This document shows, in pieces, positions 28,702-40,251 of a stretch of DNA of 64,000 nt. A program made the position numbers and the translations under genes. The stretch is from positions 1,627,058-1,691,057 of the forward strand of contig OX638318.1 in NCBI GenBank assembly GCA_951812585.1, given 5' to 3'. Every line of letters begins with the position of its first letter. The stretch's first letter is position 1. The stretch comes from Rhodothermales bacterium (GTDB lineage Bacteria > Bacteroidota > Rhodothermia > Rhodothermales > Bin80). Below the pieces are notes generated by a model. The model was not told the origin of the DNA, searched no databases, and was given only the letters and a program-made list of their open reading frames with translations.

Positions 28702-29496
28702 ATGCGCGCATTACTTCTTCCGCTGAATGCGGCGGATTACCGCTTCCTTGTCGGGGTCATTCGCGGATCCCGATATCGCACCCTTGAAGCCCTGGTGGAA
28801 GATCTCGAGGCGACAGGAGATGAAGATGCGCGCGAAGAGTTGGTTGCCCACCTGGAGCACGAAATCCGCTATCTGGGTAGCAGCGGCCTGTCGTATCAGC
28901 TCCGCAAAGCAGTCGGTGGCGCGTCCGGTGCTTCGCTGCGCAGCATCATCCGTGATGTGGCGCAAGTGCTGAAGGTGCCGCTGCGTCGCGGCGTCTCAGA
29001 CCGCGCCCTGCTGAAGGGGCTTGCCGAAGACTACGCGACGGCGGAATTTGCCCGACTGGATCCAACGGAGCAGCAGTCCATGCTGGAAAACCTCGGTGTA
29101 GGAAGGCAGGAAGCCGCGGCGTTTTTGAAGCGGGGCGCTGCGGTCTTTGCGGTCCCTGTGATGATTGAAGCATTCGGGCTGCTGGTGGTGCAGGGACTGA
29201 TAAAGACCGTGATTTTCGGCATCATAGCCCGGATTGTGGGACAGCAGCTGGCGAGCAGGCTGCTGGCGTTTCTGTTTTCTAAGGCGCCGTGGTGGGTTGG
29301 CTGGATCTCGCCCACAGCCTGGGCCCTGTCTATCGGCTGGACTGCCATCACGCTGCAAGGTCCGACTCGCCGCAAGACCGTTCCTGTGATGCTCTACCTG
29401 GGCCTCTGCTGCATTCGCGAGGATCTGGAGCCTGTGCAAACACCGGAAGAGGCCCGCCGTACGGCGGATTCCAAAGGTGATTATATAGAGAACTGA
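28702..29496 (+). CDS. YaaW/UPF0174-like membrane protein, 3' end inside an IS
   Basis: 264 residues. The N-terminal half is helical and acidic (DAREELVAHLEHEIRYLGSS, YQLRKAVGGASG, ALLKGLAEDYA). The second half has hydrophobic segments (MIEAFGLLVVQGL, VIFGIIARIVGQQLASRLL, WWVGWISPTAWALSIGWTAI), as in the YaaW family of unknown function. It ends with a C-terminal NYRRKTVPV-like ARRKTVPVMLYLGL segment. The last codons (GDYIEN and TGA) come from the terminal repeat of the IS1595-like element beginning at 29476, so the natural C-terminus was replaced by insertion. The conserved core looks complete. Confidence 0.75.
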   Translation: MRALLLPLNAADYRFLVGVIRGSRYRTLEALVEDLEATGDEDAREELVAHLEHEIRYLGSSGLSYQLRKAVGGASGASLRSIIRDVAQVLKVPLRRGVSDRALLKGLAEDYATAEFARLDPTEQQSMLENLGVGRQEAAAFLKRGAAVFAVPVMIEAFGLLVVQGLIKTVIFGIIARIVGQQLASRLLAFLFSKAPWWVGWISPTAWALSIGWTAITLQGPTRRKTVPVMLYLGLCCIREDLEPVQTPEEARRTADSKGDYIEN

Positions 29497-29547
29497 AGCA
29501 TTCTTCCCGATCGGCCGTGTGAAGGGATACACCAGATCGGGGAATTC

Positions 29548-30485
29548 ATGGCGGTTAAATCGGGGCCTGGGCGCAAGTATCGCAAGGGAATCAGCATGGC
29601 CAAACTGGCCGAAATGTTTCCGGATGAGCAGGCGGCCGTCCTGTGGCTCGAGGCTGTGATTTGGTCGGACGGTCGTCTGTGCCCGCGCTGCAAGGGCACA
29701 GACACGTATGCGGGCACACACAGGCCAATGCCGTACCGATGCCGTCCGTGCAAGCGGTTCTTCTCGGTGCGCACAGGTACCGCATTGGCCAGTAGCCGGC
29801 TGCCGTTGAAGAAGTGGGTGTGGGCCATTTATCTTGAAATGACCTCCCTGAAGGCCATCTCCAGCATGAAGCTCCACTGCGACCTCGATGGGACGCAGAC
29901 TACAGCCTGGTTCATGTTGCAGCGCGTACGGGCCGCCTTTGCGCCCCTGCTGGCCGCTGCGTTCGAGGGACCGGTGGAGGCCGACGAAGCGTACGGGGGT
30001 GGCTTGGAGAAAAACAAGCACGAGCACAGGAAGCAGAAAGCCGGACGCGGCCCGGTAGTCAAGACGGCGGTGGCCGGCCTGAAAGACCGTGCAAGCGGGC
30101 AGATTCGGGCCGAAGTGGTGGAGAGCACGAATGCAGCGACCTTACAGCCGTTCGTTTACGATAACACCTCGGCACAACGGTCTACACCGATGAGGTGCAC
30201 GCCTACAAGGGCATGCTTGGGATGCAGCACGAAACCGTCAAGCACTCGGTCGGTGGGTGAGTCAATGGCCTGGCGCACACGAACGGGCTGGAATCATTCT
30301 GGAGCATGTTCAAGCGGGCGTATCATGGTACGTACCACCACTGGAGCAAGAAGCACGTGCACCGCTACGGGCACCAGTTTGCGGGCAAGCACAACGTTTA
30401 CACAATGGATACGCTGGAGCAAAGGCAGCACGTTGTGGCTGGTATGGTGGGCAAACGGCTCATGTACGCTACGCTGACAGCGTAG
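29548..30485 (+). pseudogene. IS1595-family transposase, copy 1 (broken)
   Basis: The N-terminal zinc ribbon has CPRCKGTDTY and YRCRPCKRFFSVRTGT (two CxxC). The DDE core starts at VEADEAYGGGLEKNKHEHRK. At about 30170 the frame must slip by -1 to reach TTVYTDEAHAYKGM (second catalytic Asp), MAHTNG/LESFWSMFKRAYH and HRYGHQFAGKHN. In this copy a TGA at 30258-30260 also replaces the Trp codon of VGEWVNG. It is therefore inactive. The same -1 position is out of frame in all three copies. Confidence 0.85.
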
Positions 30486-30535
30486 CGTTGTGCACCAACT
30501 CAGTAGATCAATCCATACGGACACAGGACACTGAA

Positions 30536-30724
30536 ATGACAAAAGACGACCGGCAGGAGCGCAAGCGTAAGCGCTTGCAGGGCACGTGGGGCAACACGCC
30601 AGCGGCGAATCCGCGCTACGGCGGGCTAACGATACTGGAAGCAACACGGCAGTTTTTGAAGGGTGGAAAGCGAGAGGCACCGAAGGCCAAGCCCGTCGCG
30701 CAGGCCGAAACAAGTTTCAGTTAA
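30536..30724 (+). CDS. Small accessory ORF of the IS1595-like element, copy 1
   Basis: 62 codons after the transposase, ending inside the right terminal repeat. The product is basic at the start (MTKDDRQERKRKRLQ) with a conserved middle PAANPRYGGLTILEATRQFL and a Lys/Pro/Ala-rich tail. The three copies differ by substitutions and one in-frame 6-nt indel yet all stay open, unlike the transposase frames. Function unknown; it may be a DNA-binding helper or a passenger. Confidence 0.55.
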   Translation: MTKDDRQERKRKRLQGTWGNTPAANPRYGGLTILEATRQFLKGGKREAPKAKPVAQAETSFS

Positions 30725-30737
30725 ATATATAATCGCC

Positions 30738-31364
30738 AAATCTAACCACTTAGATCCAAAGTGCAGTCCGAATGGCAACAGTTCGGGAGAGGGCGACAGA
30801 GCCAAAGGGTTGTGCCCCGGGGACACCACACCATCGGCGCGGTGGACGGCAGTGTAGTACAACAAGCCCTTTGTCCGCAGGCGGTGCGGATTCTGAGGCA
30901 CAAATCTCGAAATGCTCTTGTATTGTAGGATCTTCCTTGTGTAATTTGCAAGGTGAGTCTACTCTATCGGGTAAACGTATGCCGGAGAGGCCGGTGACGA
31001 ACAGTCAGTATGAACTAACTCAAACAGCTGTTTAGCTCAGTGATCATGAACTGGATCAAGCGCACGACCCTCGCAGCCACACTGGCCGTGGCTGGCCTGT
31101 TGGCCCAACCCATTCTGTCAGCTTCAGGCGACATATATGTATGCGAGACTGAAGAGTGCGAAGTAGTCCTCATACAGGGAGAGGATGCATGGGTCCTGAC
31201 CATTATCTGTGACGGCGAGCCCACCTAAGTATCTATTGGCGAGGGTGTGTGGGAAGGTTCTCTTTGCTTTGGAGAAATTGATCTTTGAGTCAGGTTGCCT
31301 TTGTCTTGGGCAATGGGGACCAACCGGTTTAGTATTCCGGCGGAGGTTCGGTAGCAAGACGGCG
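30738..31364 (+). repeat. 627-bp direct repeat, copy A
   Basis: Near-identical to 33046-33672 (constant offset 2308; I see essentially one difference at the 3' edge). It contains a 300-bp leader, a 60-codon Cys-peptide gene and the first codons of the propeller lipoprotein gene. Its left edge coincides exactly with the right end of IS copy 1. Confidence 0.92.
31046..31228 (+). CDS. Small secreted Cys-containing peptide, copy A
   Basis: 60 residues. MNWIKRTTLAATLAVAGLLA is a signal-like N-terminus, with likely cleavage after ILSA. The mature part of about 33 residues is acidic, with three Cys: YVCETEECEVVLIQ and TIICDGEPT. It precedes and slightly overlaps the propeller lipoprotein frame. The gene layout recalls the short NVEALA-type peptides next to 6-bladed propeller genes in Bacteroidota, but the NVEALA motif itself is absent. 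Role unknown; a secreted signal, substrate or partner of the propeller is conceivable. An upstream GTG (31040) would add two residues. Confidence 0.6.
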   Translation: MNWIKRTTLAATLAVAGLLAQPILSASGDIYVCETEECEVVLIQGEDAWVLTIICDGEPT

Positions 31365-32417
31365 ACTCTGCTGGCGTCGGTTCTCCTGCTGGTGTGGGGT
31401 TGCGGGCAATCGCCAAGTCCTGTCCGGATCATCGATTCGGACGTAATTGGCACTCTCTTGGACGCTGCTCCGCAGACGCTCGTAAACCTAGATGCCCTGC
31501 CGGAGCGGGTATGGTACCCAAACCTAGAACTAGGCCACCCGCGGGATTCTATGATTCTGGGAAGTTGGCTCGCCTTCACCTTCGTTGACGACAGCCTATA
31601 CATCGCGGATTTCAAGGCTAGCACCATCTCTGTGGCGGGGCTTGACGGCGTGCTGCACAGACAGATCGGCCAACGCGGGCAAGGACCGGCAGAATTCACC
31701 AACTTGGCTGATCTGGTTTACACCAATGGGCACTTCTTCGCCGGAGAAGAAAGTCGGATACAGGTATTGTCCAGAAACTTAGAGTACGTAGCCTCAACCG
31801 ATCCAGCGGAATCGGGTCCCTATTTACCTGGAGAGACCCTTTCGGCCTCTTCCACGCGGCTGTATGCTCCATGTGATTTGTCGTATGCGTTCCGCGTCTG
31901 CCCACGTAGCGCCATGCTACCCTATGAAAAAGGGCAACCCTTCCTGCGCTCACTGGGCATTACGAAACTCGCTATGGACCTTTTGAAGCTTGGCGTTACG
32001 CCTGATGGGCAGTACGTGATTGCGGCATTCGCAGCACTGCCCTACCTGTTTGTGTTCGATGAACACCACGAACACATCCACACCATACGCTTCTTCGGGA
32101 AAGAAGTAAGTGCTCACGCCCGCAACTACACAACTACCCGCCCCGGCATGCCTGGCATATTTTTGAACTTACTGTTGACGAATATCCATGTGTTGAGCGA
32201 CGAATACGTTGCAGTGCCGATCAGAGATCGGTGGCATATCATTCGAATAAAGGACGGTGGCGTGTTTGAGCACGTGGACATAGTCCTGCTGAATCACACA
32301 ATCTCGGATGATGATGGCTACGTCACAGGTGTCACCCAGGCACGACTTCATGAGGGTCACCTGTACGTGTCCACGACTCGGCTGGCCTACATTCTGCGAT
32401 ACCCATTCCCGCATTAG
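31209..32417 (+). CDS. 6-bladed beta-propeller-like lipoprotein
   Basis: 402 codons from a GTG at 31209; a TTG at 31278 is another start and neither is convincing. The export signal is FGSKTATLLASVLLLVWGC with Cys at about 65. The body has propeller-type repeats: DDSLYIADFKASTISVAGLD and GQRGQGPAEFTNLADLVYTN (the GxGPGEF style of 6-bladed NHL-like proteins), then SRIQVLSRNLEYV. Such genes are common in Bacteroidota with unknown substrate. The 5' part lies in the 627-bp repeat, and a truncated copy is at 33517-33705. Confidence 0.7.
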   Translation: MTASPPKYLLARVCGKVLFALEKLIFESGCLCLGQWGPTGLVFRRRFGSKTATLLASVLLLVWGCGQSPSPVRIIDSDVIGTLLDAAPQTLVNLDALPERVWYPNLELGHPRDSMILGSWLAFTFVDDSLYIADFKASTISVAGLDGVLHRQIGQRGQGPAEFTNLADLVYTNGHFFAGEESRIQVLSRNLEYVASTDPAESGPYLPGETLSASSTRLYAPCDLSYAFRVCPRSAMLPYEKGQPFLRSLGITKLAMDLLKLGVTPDGQYVIAAFAALPYLFVFDEHHEHIHTIRFFGKEVSAHARNYTTTRPGMPGIFLNLLLTNIHVLSDEYVAVPIRDRWHIIRIKDGGVFEHVDIVLLNHTISDDDGYVTGVTQARLHEGHLYVSTTRLAYILRYPFPH

Positions 32418-32914
32418 AGGAATGGACTACGGACTAGCTGCTGGCCTAGCAGCACACTTAGTCCTTGATTTCCACTTGTTGCTGCGCGGAGAATAGGGCG
32501 AGGATGGTCTGCCTCCCGATCCATGACGCAGATTACATGGGTCTTTCTACTGAGGTGGGTGGCCGCCTCGGTGATGTCATGCAGCCCGTTGATCCACTGC
32601 TGCGTCTTAGCCGCGTGTGCGCCCAGTGGCAACCCCTCTGCATTCAGCACCAACGTCGTATGCAAATGCACACCGTGTGCCTTCGTCGTAGTCTGGTTGC
32701 GCCCCGATCACCTCCAAGCCCCTTGCACACAGGGACGGGTACTGTAGTTGATGTCGGTGCCGTCTTGAAAGAACAGGATCGGCTCCGCTGCGCGCATCCG
32801 CTTGATCGTTCGGCTGCGATGCGGTGCCAGGATATGCTCGGGCGTGATCCCCTGCTCGTTGGTCTTCTCTTTGAAACGATAATGCCCCCGTATGGCTGCC
32901 CTGTCGGATTTCAT
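32414..32914 (-). pseudogene. IS4-family (Tn5-like) transposase remnant
   Basis: Two minus-strand pieces in different phases. The first reads RGHYRFKEKTNEQGITPEHI, APHRSRTIKRM and ILFFQDGTDINYSTRP, the N-terminal part with the catalytic D in QDGTDI. The second reads HLHTTLVLNAEGLPLG, AKTQQWINGLHDI, then HVICVMDREAD with the DRE(A)D box. Order and spacing fit IS4/Tn5-type transposases; the C-terminal Y-(2)-R-(3)-E-(6)-K part is missing. Confidence 0.75.
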
Positions 32915-33045
32915 GGTGGCTGTGAGGCCCCTCCCTCCCTCGATCGATTACAGGCAGAAAGGGCCCAACAAAAAGCCTCTTCGGGGGCTTCTTCCGGCCA
33001 GTTGCCCCGGCCTCCATGATTCCCTGATAAATACCTCTTGTTACG

Positions 33046-33672
33046 AAATCTAACCACTTAGATCCAAAGTGCAGTCCGAATGGCAACAGTTCGGGAGAGG
33101 GCGACAGAGCCAAAGGGTTGTGCCCCGGGGACACCACACCATCGGCGCGGTGGACGGCAGTGTAGTACAACAAGCCCTTTGTCCGCAGGCGGTGCGGATT
33201 CTGAGGCACAAATCTCGAAATGCTCTTGTATTGTAGGATCTTCCTTGTGTAATTTGCAAGGTGAGTCTACTCTATCGGGTAAACGTATGCCGGAGAGGCC
33301 GGTGACGAACAGTCAGTATGAACTAACTCAAACAGCTGTTTAGCTCAGTGATCATGAACTGGATCAAGCGCACGACCCTCGCAGCCACACTGGCCGTGGC
33401 TGGCCTGTTGGCCCAACCCATTCTGTCAGCTTCAGGCGACATATATGTATGCGAGACTGAAGAGTGCGAAGTAGTCCTCATACAGGGAGAGGATGCATGG
33501 GTCCTGACCATTATCTGTGACGGCGAGCCCACCTAAGTATCTATTGGCGAGGGTGTGTGGGAAGGTTCTCTTTGCTTTGGAGAAATTGATCTTTGAGTCA
33601 GGTTGCCTTTGTCTTGGGCAATGGGGACCAACCGGTTTAGTATTCCGGCGGAGGTTCGGTAGCAAAACGGCG
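33046..33672 (+). repeat. 627-bp direct repeat, copy B
   Basis: Second copy of 30738-31364. Its left edge follows the IS4-like remnant and its right edge runs into an integrase-like remnant, with the break in identity at ggcg (33669-33672). The leader and peptide gene are intact while the propeller gene is cut after about 50 codons. Confidence 0.92.
33354..33536 (+). CDS. Small secreted Cys-containing peptide, copy B
   Basis: Identical 60-residue product to the one at 31046-31228, with the same leader. Here it has no complete downstream propeller gene. If both copies are expressed, the peptide is made without its usual neighbour from this locus. Confidence 0.55.
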   Translation: MNWIKRTTLAATLAVAGLLAQPILSASGDIYVCETEECEVVLIQGEDAWVLTIICDGEPT

Positions 33673-33705
33673 TCACTTTCTCGGCCATACGCTGCCGGCT
33701 TGTAG
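33517..33705 (+). pseudogene. 5' fragment of the propeller lipoprotein gene
   Basis: Repeats the first about 50 codons of 31209-32417 up to FRRRFGSKTA, then runs into unrelated sequence (SLSRPYAAGL) and stops. The signal peptide is lost, so no product is expected. Confidence 0.75.
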
Positions 33706-33894
33706 CGGCCGGTCTGATGAATGTCGATAGTCTGTCCCGGTCTGCGACAACTGAAGGTGCCGGTTTTTAGAGGATGAGAATGGGGCCGGCCGGGCATGGG
33801 TGTATCTGCTGGTGGTCGCCAGTGACACATGCCCGATGATTTCCTTAACCTCGTGGGTCGGCGATCCGTGATCCAGTGCCGGGAATGAGGGCAT
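33673..33894 (-). pseudogene. Tyrosine recombinase C-terminal remnant
   Basis: The minus strand reads LDHGSPTHEVKEIIGHVSLA, then TTSRYTHARPAPF. This is the C-terminal integrase pattern with the LGH-like IIGHVSLATTSRYTH box, including the catalytic Tyr. Nothing upstream supplies the R-K-H part, so it is a fragment. Confidence 0.5.
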
Positions 33895-33916
33895 GGCGCG
33901 GGGCTGACGATGCTCA

Positions 33917-33931
33917 CCCCCCCCCCCCCCC
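33917..33931. repeat. 15-base C tract
   Basis: Run of 15 C between the integrase remnant and an AT-rich stretch beginning gatgtgttattatcgg. It is a likely slippage site and may also be a length error or an assembly join. Confidence 0.8.
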
Positions 33932-34401
33932 GATGTGTTATTATCGGAAATGTTTTAGGACCCGAAAAACGGGTATGAACGGCTGGCAGTGAACCTACGG
34001 CGCTTGGCCTTGGGAACCACCTCAGTCGGCCGCGATTATCCCCTAGGGGTACTGATCAACGTCAATACATGATGGGGCCGGCGACAATTAATTATGGATT
34101 AAGAGAGAGGCCGAGCTTCGAGGCCGAACAGATTGTTTCGGCCCTATTCCGCAGTGCGTGACGGCGGGCGTGACAGGTTAATCCAGTAGGCCGCCTCCGG
34201 ACGGACAGTGGTACGGATAGGGTCGCGGAATCGCCGCTTGAGGCGCCTTTATCCGGCCAAGAAGGGTGCTTGCATCGACATTGGCACGGATGCCGGAGTG
34301 TGCCAAGTGTTCCGAACTGACGCCAGGCGCTCACCTCGCGCCTTCCTGAAGGCCCTGGGACCACGTCCCAGGGCAGGACAGGACCGCGGACGGCTGCCTA
34401 C
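33932..34401. other. Non-coding stretch with a perfect hairpin
   Basis: About 470 bp without a recognisable gene. At 34352-34374 there is a 10-bp perfect stem (gccctgggac / gtcccagggc) with loop cac, just beyond the 3' end of the istB remnant; it may be the transcription stop of the former IS21 element. A small inverted pair cccg-aaaaa-cggg lies at about 33962-33974. Confidence 0.4.
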
Positions 34402-34602
34402 TCAGGGTGCAGGTTCATGCACTGCCTGGGCTTCACTCTGGGCCTCTTGGCGCCGCTTGGAGGCCTCCAGACGGTAGCTGGGCACGTTCAGCTCCAGAAT
34501 CACGCTGTGATGCACCAAACGGTCTATGGCCGCGGCCGTCGTCATCGGGTCCTTGAAGATGCGCTCCCACTGGCTGAAGGCCAGATTGCTCGTAAGCAGC
34601 AC
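34402..34602 (-). pseudogene. IS21-family istB helper ATPase, C-terminal remnant
   Basis: The minus strand reads LLTSNLAFSQWERIFKDPMT followed by TAAAIDRLVHHSVILELNVP and SYRLEASKRRQE. This is the very conserved C-terminal end of IstB. The Walker motifs and istA are missing. The match breaks exactly where the 79-bp sequence shared with copy 3 begins. Confidence 0.85.
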
Positions 34603-34673
34603 GCATGGCCAGCATGAGTGGGCCGTGACCGTATTTCGCGAAGCGGCCTACTCATGCGGCAATGGTTTGGAAG
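34595..34673 (+). repeat. 79-bp sequence adjoining IS copy 2 (inverted match at 40324-40402)
   Basis: Matches 40324-40402 in reverse complement with one visible difference, next to the IS left end in both places. It holds an internal inverted pair catgagtgggcc / ggcctactcatg (one mismatch) separated by about 20 nt. It is absent beside IS copy 1. It seems to have moved together with the IS. Confidence 0.75.
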
Positions 34674-34745
34674 GGTGATTATATAAAGAACTGAAGCATT
34701 CTTCCCGATCGGCCGTGTGAAGGGATACACCAGATCGGGGAATTC

Positions 34746-35681
34746 ATGGCGGTTAAATCGGGGCCTGAGCGCAGTTATCGCAAGGGAATCAGCATGGTCA
34801 AACTGGCCGAAATGTTTCCGGATGAGCAGGCGGCCGTCCTGTGGCTCGAGGCTGTGATTTGGCCGGACGGTCGTCTGTGCCCGCGTTGCAAGGGCACAGA
34901 CACGTATGCGGGCACACAGGCCAATGCCGTACCGATGCCGTCCGTGCAAGCGGTTCTTCTCGGTGCGCACAGGTACCGCATTGGCCAGTAGCCGGCTGCC
35001 GTTGAAGAAGTGGGTGTGGGCCATTTATCTTGAAATGACCTCCCTGAAGGGCGTCTCCAGCATGAAGCTCCACCGCGACCTCGATGGGACGCAGACTACG
35101 GCCTGGTTCATGTTGCAGCGCGTACGGGCCGCCTTTGCGCCCCTGCTGGCCGCTGCGTTCGAGGGATCGGTGGAGGCCGACGAAGCGTACGGGGGTGGCT
35201 TGGAGAAAAACAAGCACGAGCACAGGAAGCAGAAAGCCGGACGCGGGCCAGTAGGCAAGACGGCGGTGGCCGGCCTGAAAGACCGTGCAAGCGGGCAGAT
35301 TCGGGCCGAAGTGGTAGAGAGCACGAATGCAGCGACCTTACAGCCGTTCGTTTACGATAACACCTCGGCACAACGGTCTACACCGATGAGGCGCACGTCT
35401 ACAAGGGCATGCGTGGGATGCAGCACGAAACCGTCAAGCACTCGGTCGGCGAGTGGGTCAATGGCATGGCGCACACGAACGGGCTGGAATCATTCTGGAG
35501 CATGTTCAAGCGGGCGTATCATAGTACGTACCACCACTGGAGCAAGAAGCACGTGCACCGCTACGGGCACCAGTTTGCGGGCAAGCACAACGTTTACACA
35601 ATGGATACGCTGGAGCAAAGGCAGCACGTCGTGGCTGGTATGGTGGGCAAACGGCTCATGTACGCTACGCTGTCAGCGTAG
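34746..35681 (+). pseudogene. IS1595-family transposase, copy 2 (broken)
   Basis: Same domain order as the other copies: zinc ribbon, DDE core, C-terminal HTNG and HRYGHQFAGKHN. It has two breaks. A 2-nt deletion in the cacaca run at about 34911-34916 puts the second CxxC out of frame, and the shared -1 break lies at about 35366. The C-terminal phase is open from about 35370 (VYTDEAHVYKGMRGMQHETV) to the stop at 35681. Confidence 0.85.
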
Positions 35682-35731
35682 CGTTGTGCACCAACTCAGT
35701 AGATCAATGCATACGGACACAGAACACTGAA

Positions 35732-35914
35732 ATGACAAAAGGCGACCGGCAGGAGCGCAAGCGCTTGCAGGACACGTGGGACAACACGCCAGCGGCGAAT
35801 CCGCGCTACGGCGGGCTAACGATACTGGAAGCAACACGGCAGTTCTTGAAGGGCGGGAGGCCGGAGGCACCGAAGGCCAAGCCCGCCGCCCAGGATGAGG
35901 TAAGCTTCAGTTAA
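35732..35914 (+). CDS. Small accessory ORF of the IS1595-like element, copy 2
   Basis: 60 codons: MTKGDRQERKRLQDTWDNTP, then AANPRYGGLTILEATRQFLK and a Pro/Ala/Lys tail ending VSFS. Identical product in copy 3. It lies 50 nt after the transposase stop and ends in the right terminal repeat. Confidence 0.55.
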   Translation: MTKGDRQERKRLQDTWDNTPAANPRYGGLTILEATRQFLKGGRPEAPKAKPAAQDEVSFS

Positions 35915-35927
35915 CTATGTAATCGCC

Positions 35928-38285: not shown

Positions 38286-39067
38286 ATACTGCCCGCAGTG
38301 GTGACTTTCAGGGCTATCGTTGATCGTCGTCACTCCCGTGTCCTCGAACATGTGTGCCACCGCCGTGGTCAAGGCTTTGACCAGGCAAGGCAGGTCAAGA
38401 GCTCTTCCAAGGTTTCAGTGTAAGGTCGTCTCATCTCACGGGCCCGGTTGCATTTTCCTTTAGAGACTAGATGACGAACTAACAGAAAAGTTGCCGCCTT
38501 AAGGCTATTATCCGGTGCCGCAATTCATGGCTGTTTGTAGGATAGAGCCAGTAGTGGATTGGACGGAAAACCCTTACTCTCTACCGCTTCTCCGTTCTTC
38601 GATACATGAGCTCTACCTGTGCGAGGCTGTCCACGGCTACGGATATTCGCTCACAGGGACCCGCAATGCCACCTACATCCTGGGTCGCCGTGGCGTTGCA
38701 TTCATCTCCGCCGTGTCCGAATACGAGCTATTCTAAAGTCGCATGGATTACTGATCTGTGCTGGCAGGCTGAGCCCGAGCCCGATTGCTCACCAATGCAC
38801 GCAAACGCACTCGGCAGCTTCCTACTCGCGCCTTGCGCGGCTACTTGTCTACAGTCTCTTGGTACATGCTGGGCAGATGAGCCGCATCGGCACAGGTCAG
38901 CACCGCGTCTGTTGCAGCCAGCGCGATTGCCAGCGGCAGGGCCTCAGCGACACTGGTCAAGAAGAGGAAAGCGGGCTCCCGACTCGAGTCAATAGGCTGT
39001 AGGATGCGTGCCATCGTCTGCAGAACGCGATGAGGGCACGCACCTGATGCCGCCGAGCGTTTTCTTT
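38286..39067. other. Region left of IS copy 3 with short uncertain ORFs
   Basis: About 780 bp. Two short frames look protein-like but match nothing I know. A minus-strand frame of 57 residues at 38841-39014 reads MARILQPIDSSREPAFLFLT, then SVAEALPLAIALAATDAVLT. A plus-strand frame at 38527-38736 reads MAVCRIEPVVDWTENPYSLP and ends AFISAVSEYELF. The first is slightly like the end of a PIN domain; I would not name it. Confidence 0.3.
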
Positions 39068-39080
39068 GGCGATTACATAG

Positions 39081-39263
39081 TTAACTGAAGCTTACCTCAT
39101 CCTGGGCGGCGGGCTTGGCCTTCGGTGCCTCCGGCCTCCCGCCCTTCAAGAACTGCCGTGTTGCTTCCAGTATCGTTAGCCCGCCGTAGCGCGGATTCGC
39201 CGCTGGCGTGTTGTCCCACGTGTCCTGCAAGCGCTTGCGCTCCTGCCGGTCGCCTTTTGTCAT
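39081..39263 (-). CDS. Small accessory ORF of the IS1595-like element, copy 3
   Basis: 60-residue product identical to that of copy 2 (MTKGDRQERKRLQDTWDNTP and so on). It lies after the transposase on the minus strand and ends in the terminal repeat. Confidence 0.55.
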   Translation of the reverse strand: MTKGDRQERKRLQDTWDNTPAANPRYGGLTILEATRQFLKGGRPEAPKAKPAAQDEVSFS

Positions 39264-39313
39264 TTCAGTGTTCTGTGTCCGTATGCATTGATCTACTGAG
39301 TTGGTGCACAACG

Positions 39314-40251
39314 CTACGCTGACAGCGTAGCGTACATGAGCCGTTTGCCCACCATACCAGCCACGACGTGCTGCCTTTGCTCCAGCGTATCCATTGTGTA
39401 AACGTTGTGCTTGCCCGCAAACTGGTGCCCGTAGCGGTGCACGTGCTTCTTGCTCCAGTGGTGGTACGTACTATGATACGCCCGCTTGAACATGCTCCAG
39501 AATGATTCCAGCCCGTTCGTGTGCGCCATGCCATTGACCCACTCGCCGACCGAGTGCTTGACGGTTTCGTGCTGCATCCCACGCATGCCCTTGTAGACGT
39601 GCGCCTCATCGGTGTAGACCGTTGTGCCGAGGTGTTATCGTAAACGAACGGCTGTAAGGTCGCTGCATTCGTGCTCTCTACCACTTCGGCCCGAATCTGC
39701 CCGCTTGCACGGTCTTTCAGGCCGGCCACCGCCGTCTTGCCTACTGGCCCGCGTCCGGCTTTCTGCTTCCTGTGCTCGTGCTTGTTTTTCTCCAAGCCAC
39801 CCCCGTACGCTTCGTCGGCCTCCACCGATCCCTCGAACGCAGCGGCCAGCAGGGGCGCAAAGGCGGCCCGTACGCGCTGCAACATGAACCAGGCCGTAGT
39901 CTGCGTCCCATCGAGGTCGCGGTGGAGCTTCATGCTGGAGACGCCCTTCAGGGAGGTCATTTCAAGATAAATGGCCCACACCCACTTCTTCAACGGCAGC
40001 CGGCTACTGGCCAATGCGGTACCTGTGCGCACCGAGAAGAACCGCTTGCACGGACGGCATCGGTACGGCATTGGCCTGTGTGTGCCCGCATACGTGTCTG
40101 TGCCCTTGCAGCGCGGGCACAGACGAGCGTCCGGCCAAATCACAGCCTCGAGCCACAGGACGGCCGCCTGCTCATTCGGAAACATTTCGGCCAGTTTGAC
40201 CATGCTGATTCCCTTGCGATAACTGCGCTCAGGCCCCGATTTAACCGCCAT
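39314..40251 (-). pseudogene. IS1595-family transposase, copy 3 (one frameshift)
   Basis: Starts MAVKSGPERSYRKGISMVKL; zinc ribbon CPRCKG and RCRPCKRFF intact; DDE motif VEADEAYGG and the second Asp in VYTDEAHVYKGM. The only break is at about 39627, where the N-terminal phase (FVYDNTSAQRS) must slip -1 to read NTS-GTTVYTDEAH. It then continues through GEWVNGMAHTNGLESFWSMF to the stop at 39314. No slippery heptamer is visible at the site. Confidence 0.85.

Follow-up and report, generated by a model that had tools for sequence, protein, structure and literature searches.

Pairs of a small exported peptide and a propeller lipoprotein are known from Bacteroidales, where NVEALA peptides (PF14055) are encoded together with lipoproteins of the DUF5128, TolB_like or DUF4221 type. 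The NVEALA gene lies just upstream of the propeller gene and encodes a small signal-peptide protein with Cys in its mature part, and many such pairs can occur in one genome. The literature searched contained no mention of NVEALA. Another described system is that of the bacteroidetocins, whose loci combine a GG leader, four Cys, a C39 exporter and a thiol oxidoreductase (PMC6671954). GG leaders are also found in the TIGR04149 peptides. The locus described here shares its gene arrangement with the NVEALA pairs, including the presence of several pairs per genome.

The window, i.e., the whole analysed stretch of 64,000 nucleotides from a Rhodothermales bacterium, had been described in a first-pass annotation as carrying a duplicated cassette of a small secreted Cys peptide and an overlapping propeller lipoprotein gene. 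The near-perfect repeat was confirmed. Copy 1 (30738–31364, plus strand) comprises 627 bp with a leader, the peptide gene and the start of the propeller gene, and copy 2 (33046–33672, plus strand) matches it but for one base. No third copy was found when the whole 3.2-Mb single-contig genome was searched. There are not two intact cassettes, however, as the copy 2 propeller is incomplete: only its first codons are present as an N-terminal stub (33586–33705, plus strand), and the frame stops at 33705, about 11 codons past the point where the repeat breaks off.

The peptide gene (31046–31228 and 33354–33536, both on the plus strand) encodes 60 aa with a signal peptide and three Cys. In copy 1 it runs from the ATG at 31046 to a TAA at 31226–31228 that interrupts the reading frame of the family, and copy 2 is the same, TAA included. 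Past this in-frame stop, the frame continues with VSIGEGVWEGSLCFGEIDL up to the next stop (31229–31288, plus strand), and this segment aligns with the C-terminus that carries the fourth Cys in the family, corresponding to the GSG-x-W-x-G-xx-C segment of the relatives. The earlier description of a 60-residue secreted peptide with three Cys thus holds for the signal-peptide ORF but not for the native form, as members of the family are ≈80 aa long with four Cys and the window peptide is truncated by the TAA. Since both copies share the stop, it is probably older than the duplication.

The following gene (31278–32417, plus strand) encodes a six-bladed NHL/DUF5128-type propeller lipoprotein with the lipobox Cys encoded at 31401. 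Its start codon is uncertain, with GTG 31209, GTG 31245, TTG 31269 and TTG 31278 as candidates and no ATG in frame before the lipobox. The peptide gene does lie upstream of the propeller gene, as first noted, but the two overlap only if GTG 31209 is the true start. The match of the window propeller to Pfam DUF5128 is weak (21.3 against a cut-off of 22.9), while the propeller partners in relatives exceed the cut-off. AlphaFold2 gave a confident all-beta model (pLDDT 88, pTM 0.85), and the nearest solved folds identified with Foldseek include NHL propellers and Bacteroides BF0058. The lipobox and the predicted NHL-like six-bladed fold place the protein among the DUF5128-type 6-bladed propeller lipoproteins. 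The window pair looks decayed, because the peptide is cut by the TAA and the propeller frame has no ATG ahead of its lipobox. Intact peptide-propeller pairs sit elsewhere in the same genome.

The locus has been shaped by mobile elements, since copy 1 starts exactly at the end of an IS1595-type (ISXO2-like) insertion element (29477–30737, plus strand; ends GG(T/C)GATTATATA), whose right end abuts the repeat. The C-terminal remnant of a tyrosine recombinase (33673–33894, minus strand; Phage_integrase E 1e-4, below cut-off) adjoins the break point of copy 2. Further IS1595-type elements are found at 34675–35927 and 39065–40000, so that there are three in all, two direct and one inverted, and propeller genes lie between them at 31278, 36069 and 37293 (minus). 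The 8-base flanks of the first two elements show no apparent matching target duplications, which suggests recombination between copies. Between the repeat copies (32417–33045) there are minus-strand ORF remnants that appear transposase-like by eye and have no Pfam match. A run of 15 C at 33917–33931 is possibly a phase-variable or assembly-sensitive tract. PADLOC gave no defence match.

The 308-bp leader had been thought to hint at regulation due to its conservation. No match to it was found outside the two window copies, and it is missing at the paralogous and related loci where the propeller does match. Given that it has no counterpart at the paralogous loci, its identity between the window copies is explained by recent duplication. 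A search of 29400–34700 against Rfam gave only a sub-threshold snoRNA match, so that none of the known regulatory RNAs is evident in the leader, and the regulatory suggestion is not supported.

Two paralogous pairs were identified in the same genome, at 2.347 and 1.431 Mb. Their peptides are 82 aa long with four Cys and directly precede propeller lipoproteins about 50% identical to the window propeller. A profile built from Sec-type peptides only (A3) gives hits in 29 of the 245 genomes of the class. Among all loci fetched, 40 distinct peptides had 900 nt or more of downstream DNA, and for 38 of these a propeller gene follows on the same strand within −400 to +600 nt, against a chance expectation of ≈0.2% by our own arithmetic (≈25 propellers per 3.2 Mb). 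The first-pass annotation would have been contradicted by a lack of homologs beside propellers, and this recurrence instead bears out a real peptide-propeller pair. Most of the named close relatives are MAGs with the label Rhodothermaceae or Rhodothermales, which we take to be partly sponge-derived. One genome (G012) has tandem propeller arrays with peptide remnants in between. Peptide matches outside the class (G247 and G416) were dropped, as neither a peptide gene nor a propeller lies beside them.

The mature part of the family is ≈55 aa long and has the core C-x4-C-x10-W-x5-C ... GSG-x(W/Y)-x-G-xx-C-G, which is probably held by two disulfides. AlphaFold2 predicts a compact all-beta fold for the peptide (pLDDT 87). 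Searches of the PDB by sequence and by fold gave nothing significant, Pfam and NCBIfam contain no model for the family, and a tblastn search of plasmids with a paralogue peptide gave no match. The gene pair is real and previously unnamed, a new peptide family in an arrangement of a known but unexplained kind.

The same 38 of 40 peptides directly precede the gene of a six-bladed propeller lipoprotein, which is the position typical of NVEALA peptides. The layout was also seen in a genome of the same phylum (G424), where all six NVEALA peptides are followed by a propeller. The sequences are different: the four-Cys W/GSG core is conserved in the present family, and the mature part cannot be aligned with NVEALA. 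Among the family members and relatives scanned there was no NVEALA match above cut-off, and the NVEALA motif is absent from the alignments A3 and A6. With hhalign the probability was 0.2% over the mature part and reached 37% only over the signal peptide. This agrees with the original view of an NVEALA-like layout with a peptide of another sequence class. Judged from sequence, the present pair appears to work like an NVEALA pair without being a member of that family.

Distant relatives in four genomes (G062, G076, G104, and G102) have the same mature Cys core behind a bacteriocin-type GG/AG leader, e.g., LSREEMRNIKGG, and not behind a Sec signal. Despite its Sec-only origin, the A3 profile detects these members in G062, G076, and G104 with E-values of 4e-11 to 3e-8. 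Near the members in G062 and G104 lie genes for a C39-peptidase ABC exporter and for an HlyD protein, while in G076 there is a nearby C39-peptidase ORF without a full transporter, together with DsbA and MauE. In the neighbourhood of the AG-leader member of G102, the one protein identified was a VKOR-thioredoxin protein. The double-glycine, C39-exported class thus covers only the distant members in G062 and G104, and partly that in G076; the window peptide and its close relatives have Sec signals. Since the core is shared behind two kinds of leader, the mature Cys domain is, as far as sequence can tell, the exported unit that has been kept through a leader switch, and it appears to be moved by two routes.

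These distant members resemble the bacteroidetocins (PMC6671954) in having the leader, four Cys, a C39 exporter and a thiol oxidoreductase in common, a likeness of gene anatomy. Unlike the bacteroidetocins, the present family has a propeller lipoprotein as constant partner, and most of its members use Sec. The resemblance to the TIGR04149 peptides is confined to the leader region, where the score of the G062 leader falls just short of the cut-off (24.8 against 25); the mature part is unrelated, and we noticed no radical-SAM enzyme around the present loci.

Other Cys peptides also occur beside propellers. By strict criteria, a secreted peptide with three or more Cys is encoded ahead of 6 of the 23 propellers in the genome of the window (4 of 21 Pfam-listed propellers plus the two paralogous pairs), and these peptides fall into about four sequence classes. 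None of 57 control genes is preceded by such a peptide (hypergeometric about 3e-4, own arithmetic). At four loci of this genome (L150, L154, L156, and L158, at about 0.80, 1.26, 1.23, and 2.85 Mb), propellers are directly preceded by differing small secreted peptides that contain Cys, and three of the four pass the strict criteria. In two more genomes (L073 and L075 in G006 and G041), several propeller genes are clustered, with further differing Cys-rich secreted peptides alongside.

The divergence of peptide and propeller is correlated (Mantel r 0.60; 0.29 for propellers below 60% identity), and much of this correlation may be shared ancestry. Between the paralogues of the genome, omega is 0.87 for the mature peptide and 0.47 for the propeller, i.e., the peptide evolves faster, with few substitutions underlying both values. 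According to our reading of the table of 51 related propellers, the peptide is intact upstream of ≈26, broken at 10 and undetectable upstream of 14, some of these last lying near contig ends. The 10 broken-peptide loci represent ≈5 independent ones; the G012 arrays are not independent. A clearly intact peptide with a broken propeller was found in one case only, and broken propellers are harder to detect. The asymmetry, with the peptide broken and the propeller full-length, is opposite to what target size predicts. Because propellers often stay full-length where peptides are broken, we lean toward a use of the propeller beyond its own peptide, either in immunity or in the reception of peptides from others.

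What was observed or computed comprises the pairing and its recurrence, the core shared behind two leaders, the C39-peptidase and disulfide enzymes in the neighbourhood, the propeller fold as predicted and the damage in the window. To this we add a reading that we hold to be likely, namely that the window peptide is a decayed representative of a family of exported Cys peptides, each with its cognate envelope partner in the propeller lipoprotein encoded directly downstream. The peptide would leave the cytoplasm by means of its Sec signal peptide; in those distant relatives that have a GG-type leader instead, the C39-peptidase ABC exporter would probably be the route. After presumed cleavage, the mature peptide would be stabilised by disulfides and bound by the propeller lipoprotein encoded by the following gene. 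The propeller might then protect the producer, as an immunity protein does against a bacteriocin, or take up or sense the peptide as the receptor of a signal.

For the bacteriocin-like role, with the propeller as immunity protein, the GG leader, four Cys, C39 exporter and thiol oxidoreductase match the anatomy of the bacteroidetocin loci, and the peptide evolves fast. Full-length propellers beside broken peptides, with the reverse clearly seen once, also fit orphan immunity genes and not target size, a count that is biased by the poorer detection of broken propellers. Bacteroidetocin producers, on the other hand, have no immunity protein (PMC6671954), and a propeller of 350 aa would be an unusual one, so this role is put forward tentatively. 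This anatomy would equally suit double-glycine signal peptides, with the propeller as a surface receptor or sensor in quorum or kin recognition. One genome pairs several Cys-peptide classes with different propellers, and orphan propellers could be eavesdroppers; but no histidine kinase, sigma/anti-sigma factor or other regulator was consistently found beside the pairs examined, and we regard a signalling role as possible but rather doubtful.

If the peptide were not a diffusible factor but a subunit with a structural or assembly role in an envelope complex based on the propeller, this would agree with the tight gene order and with Sec-type loci at which no dedicated exporter was noticed. The GG leader and nearby C39 exporter of the relatives indicate release and not assembly, which makes such a subunit unlikely. 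That the ORF arose by chance within a duplicated region of mobile elements is highly improbable: IS1595 elements and recombinase remnants do flank the block, and both window copies have suffered damage, but across many genomes the homologs keep their Cys, Trp, and Gly residues, and nearly all of them sit next to a propeller. For the family this explanation is refuted, while the window copy itself is possibly no longer working.

Beyond the exported peptide and its cognate propeller, a wider class can be envisaged, which we consider possible but somewhat less likely than not: an interbacterial or kin-recognition class across the phylum Bacteroidota, in which disulfide-stabilised exported peptides of several unrelated classes would be matched to cognate propeller lipoproteins. 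NVEALA and the present family would be two of its branches, and Sec and C39 export would be interchangeable for the same mature domain. Peptide-propeller pairs are recurrent in Bacteroidota, and a second, sequence-unrelated class of peptide now has the same partner. The members whose GG leader occurs close to a C39 exporter and to disulfide enzymes point to the peptide as an exported, folded mini-protein, and the family makes a direct test of peptide-propeller binding, inhibition or signalling feasible.
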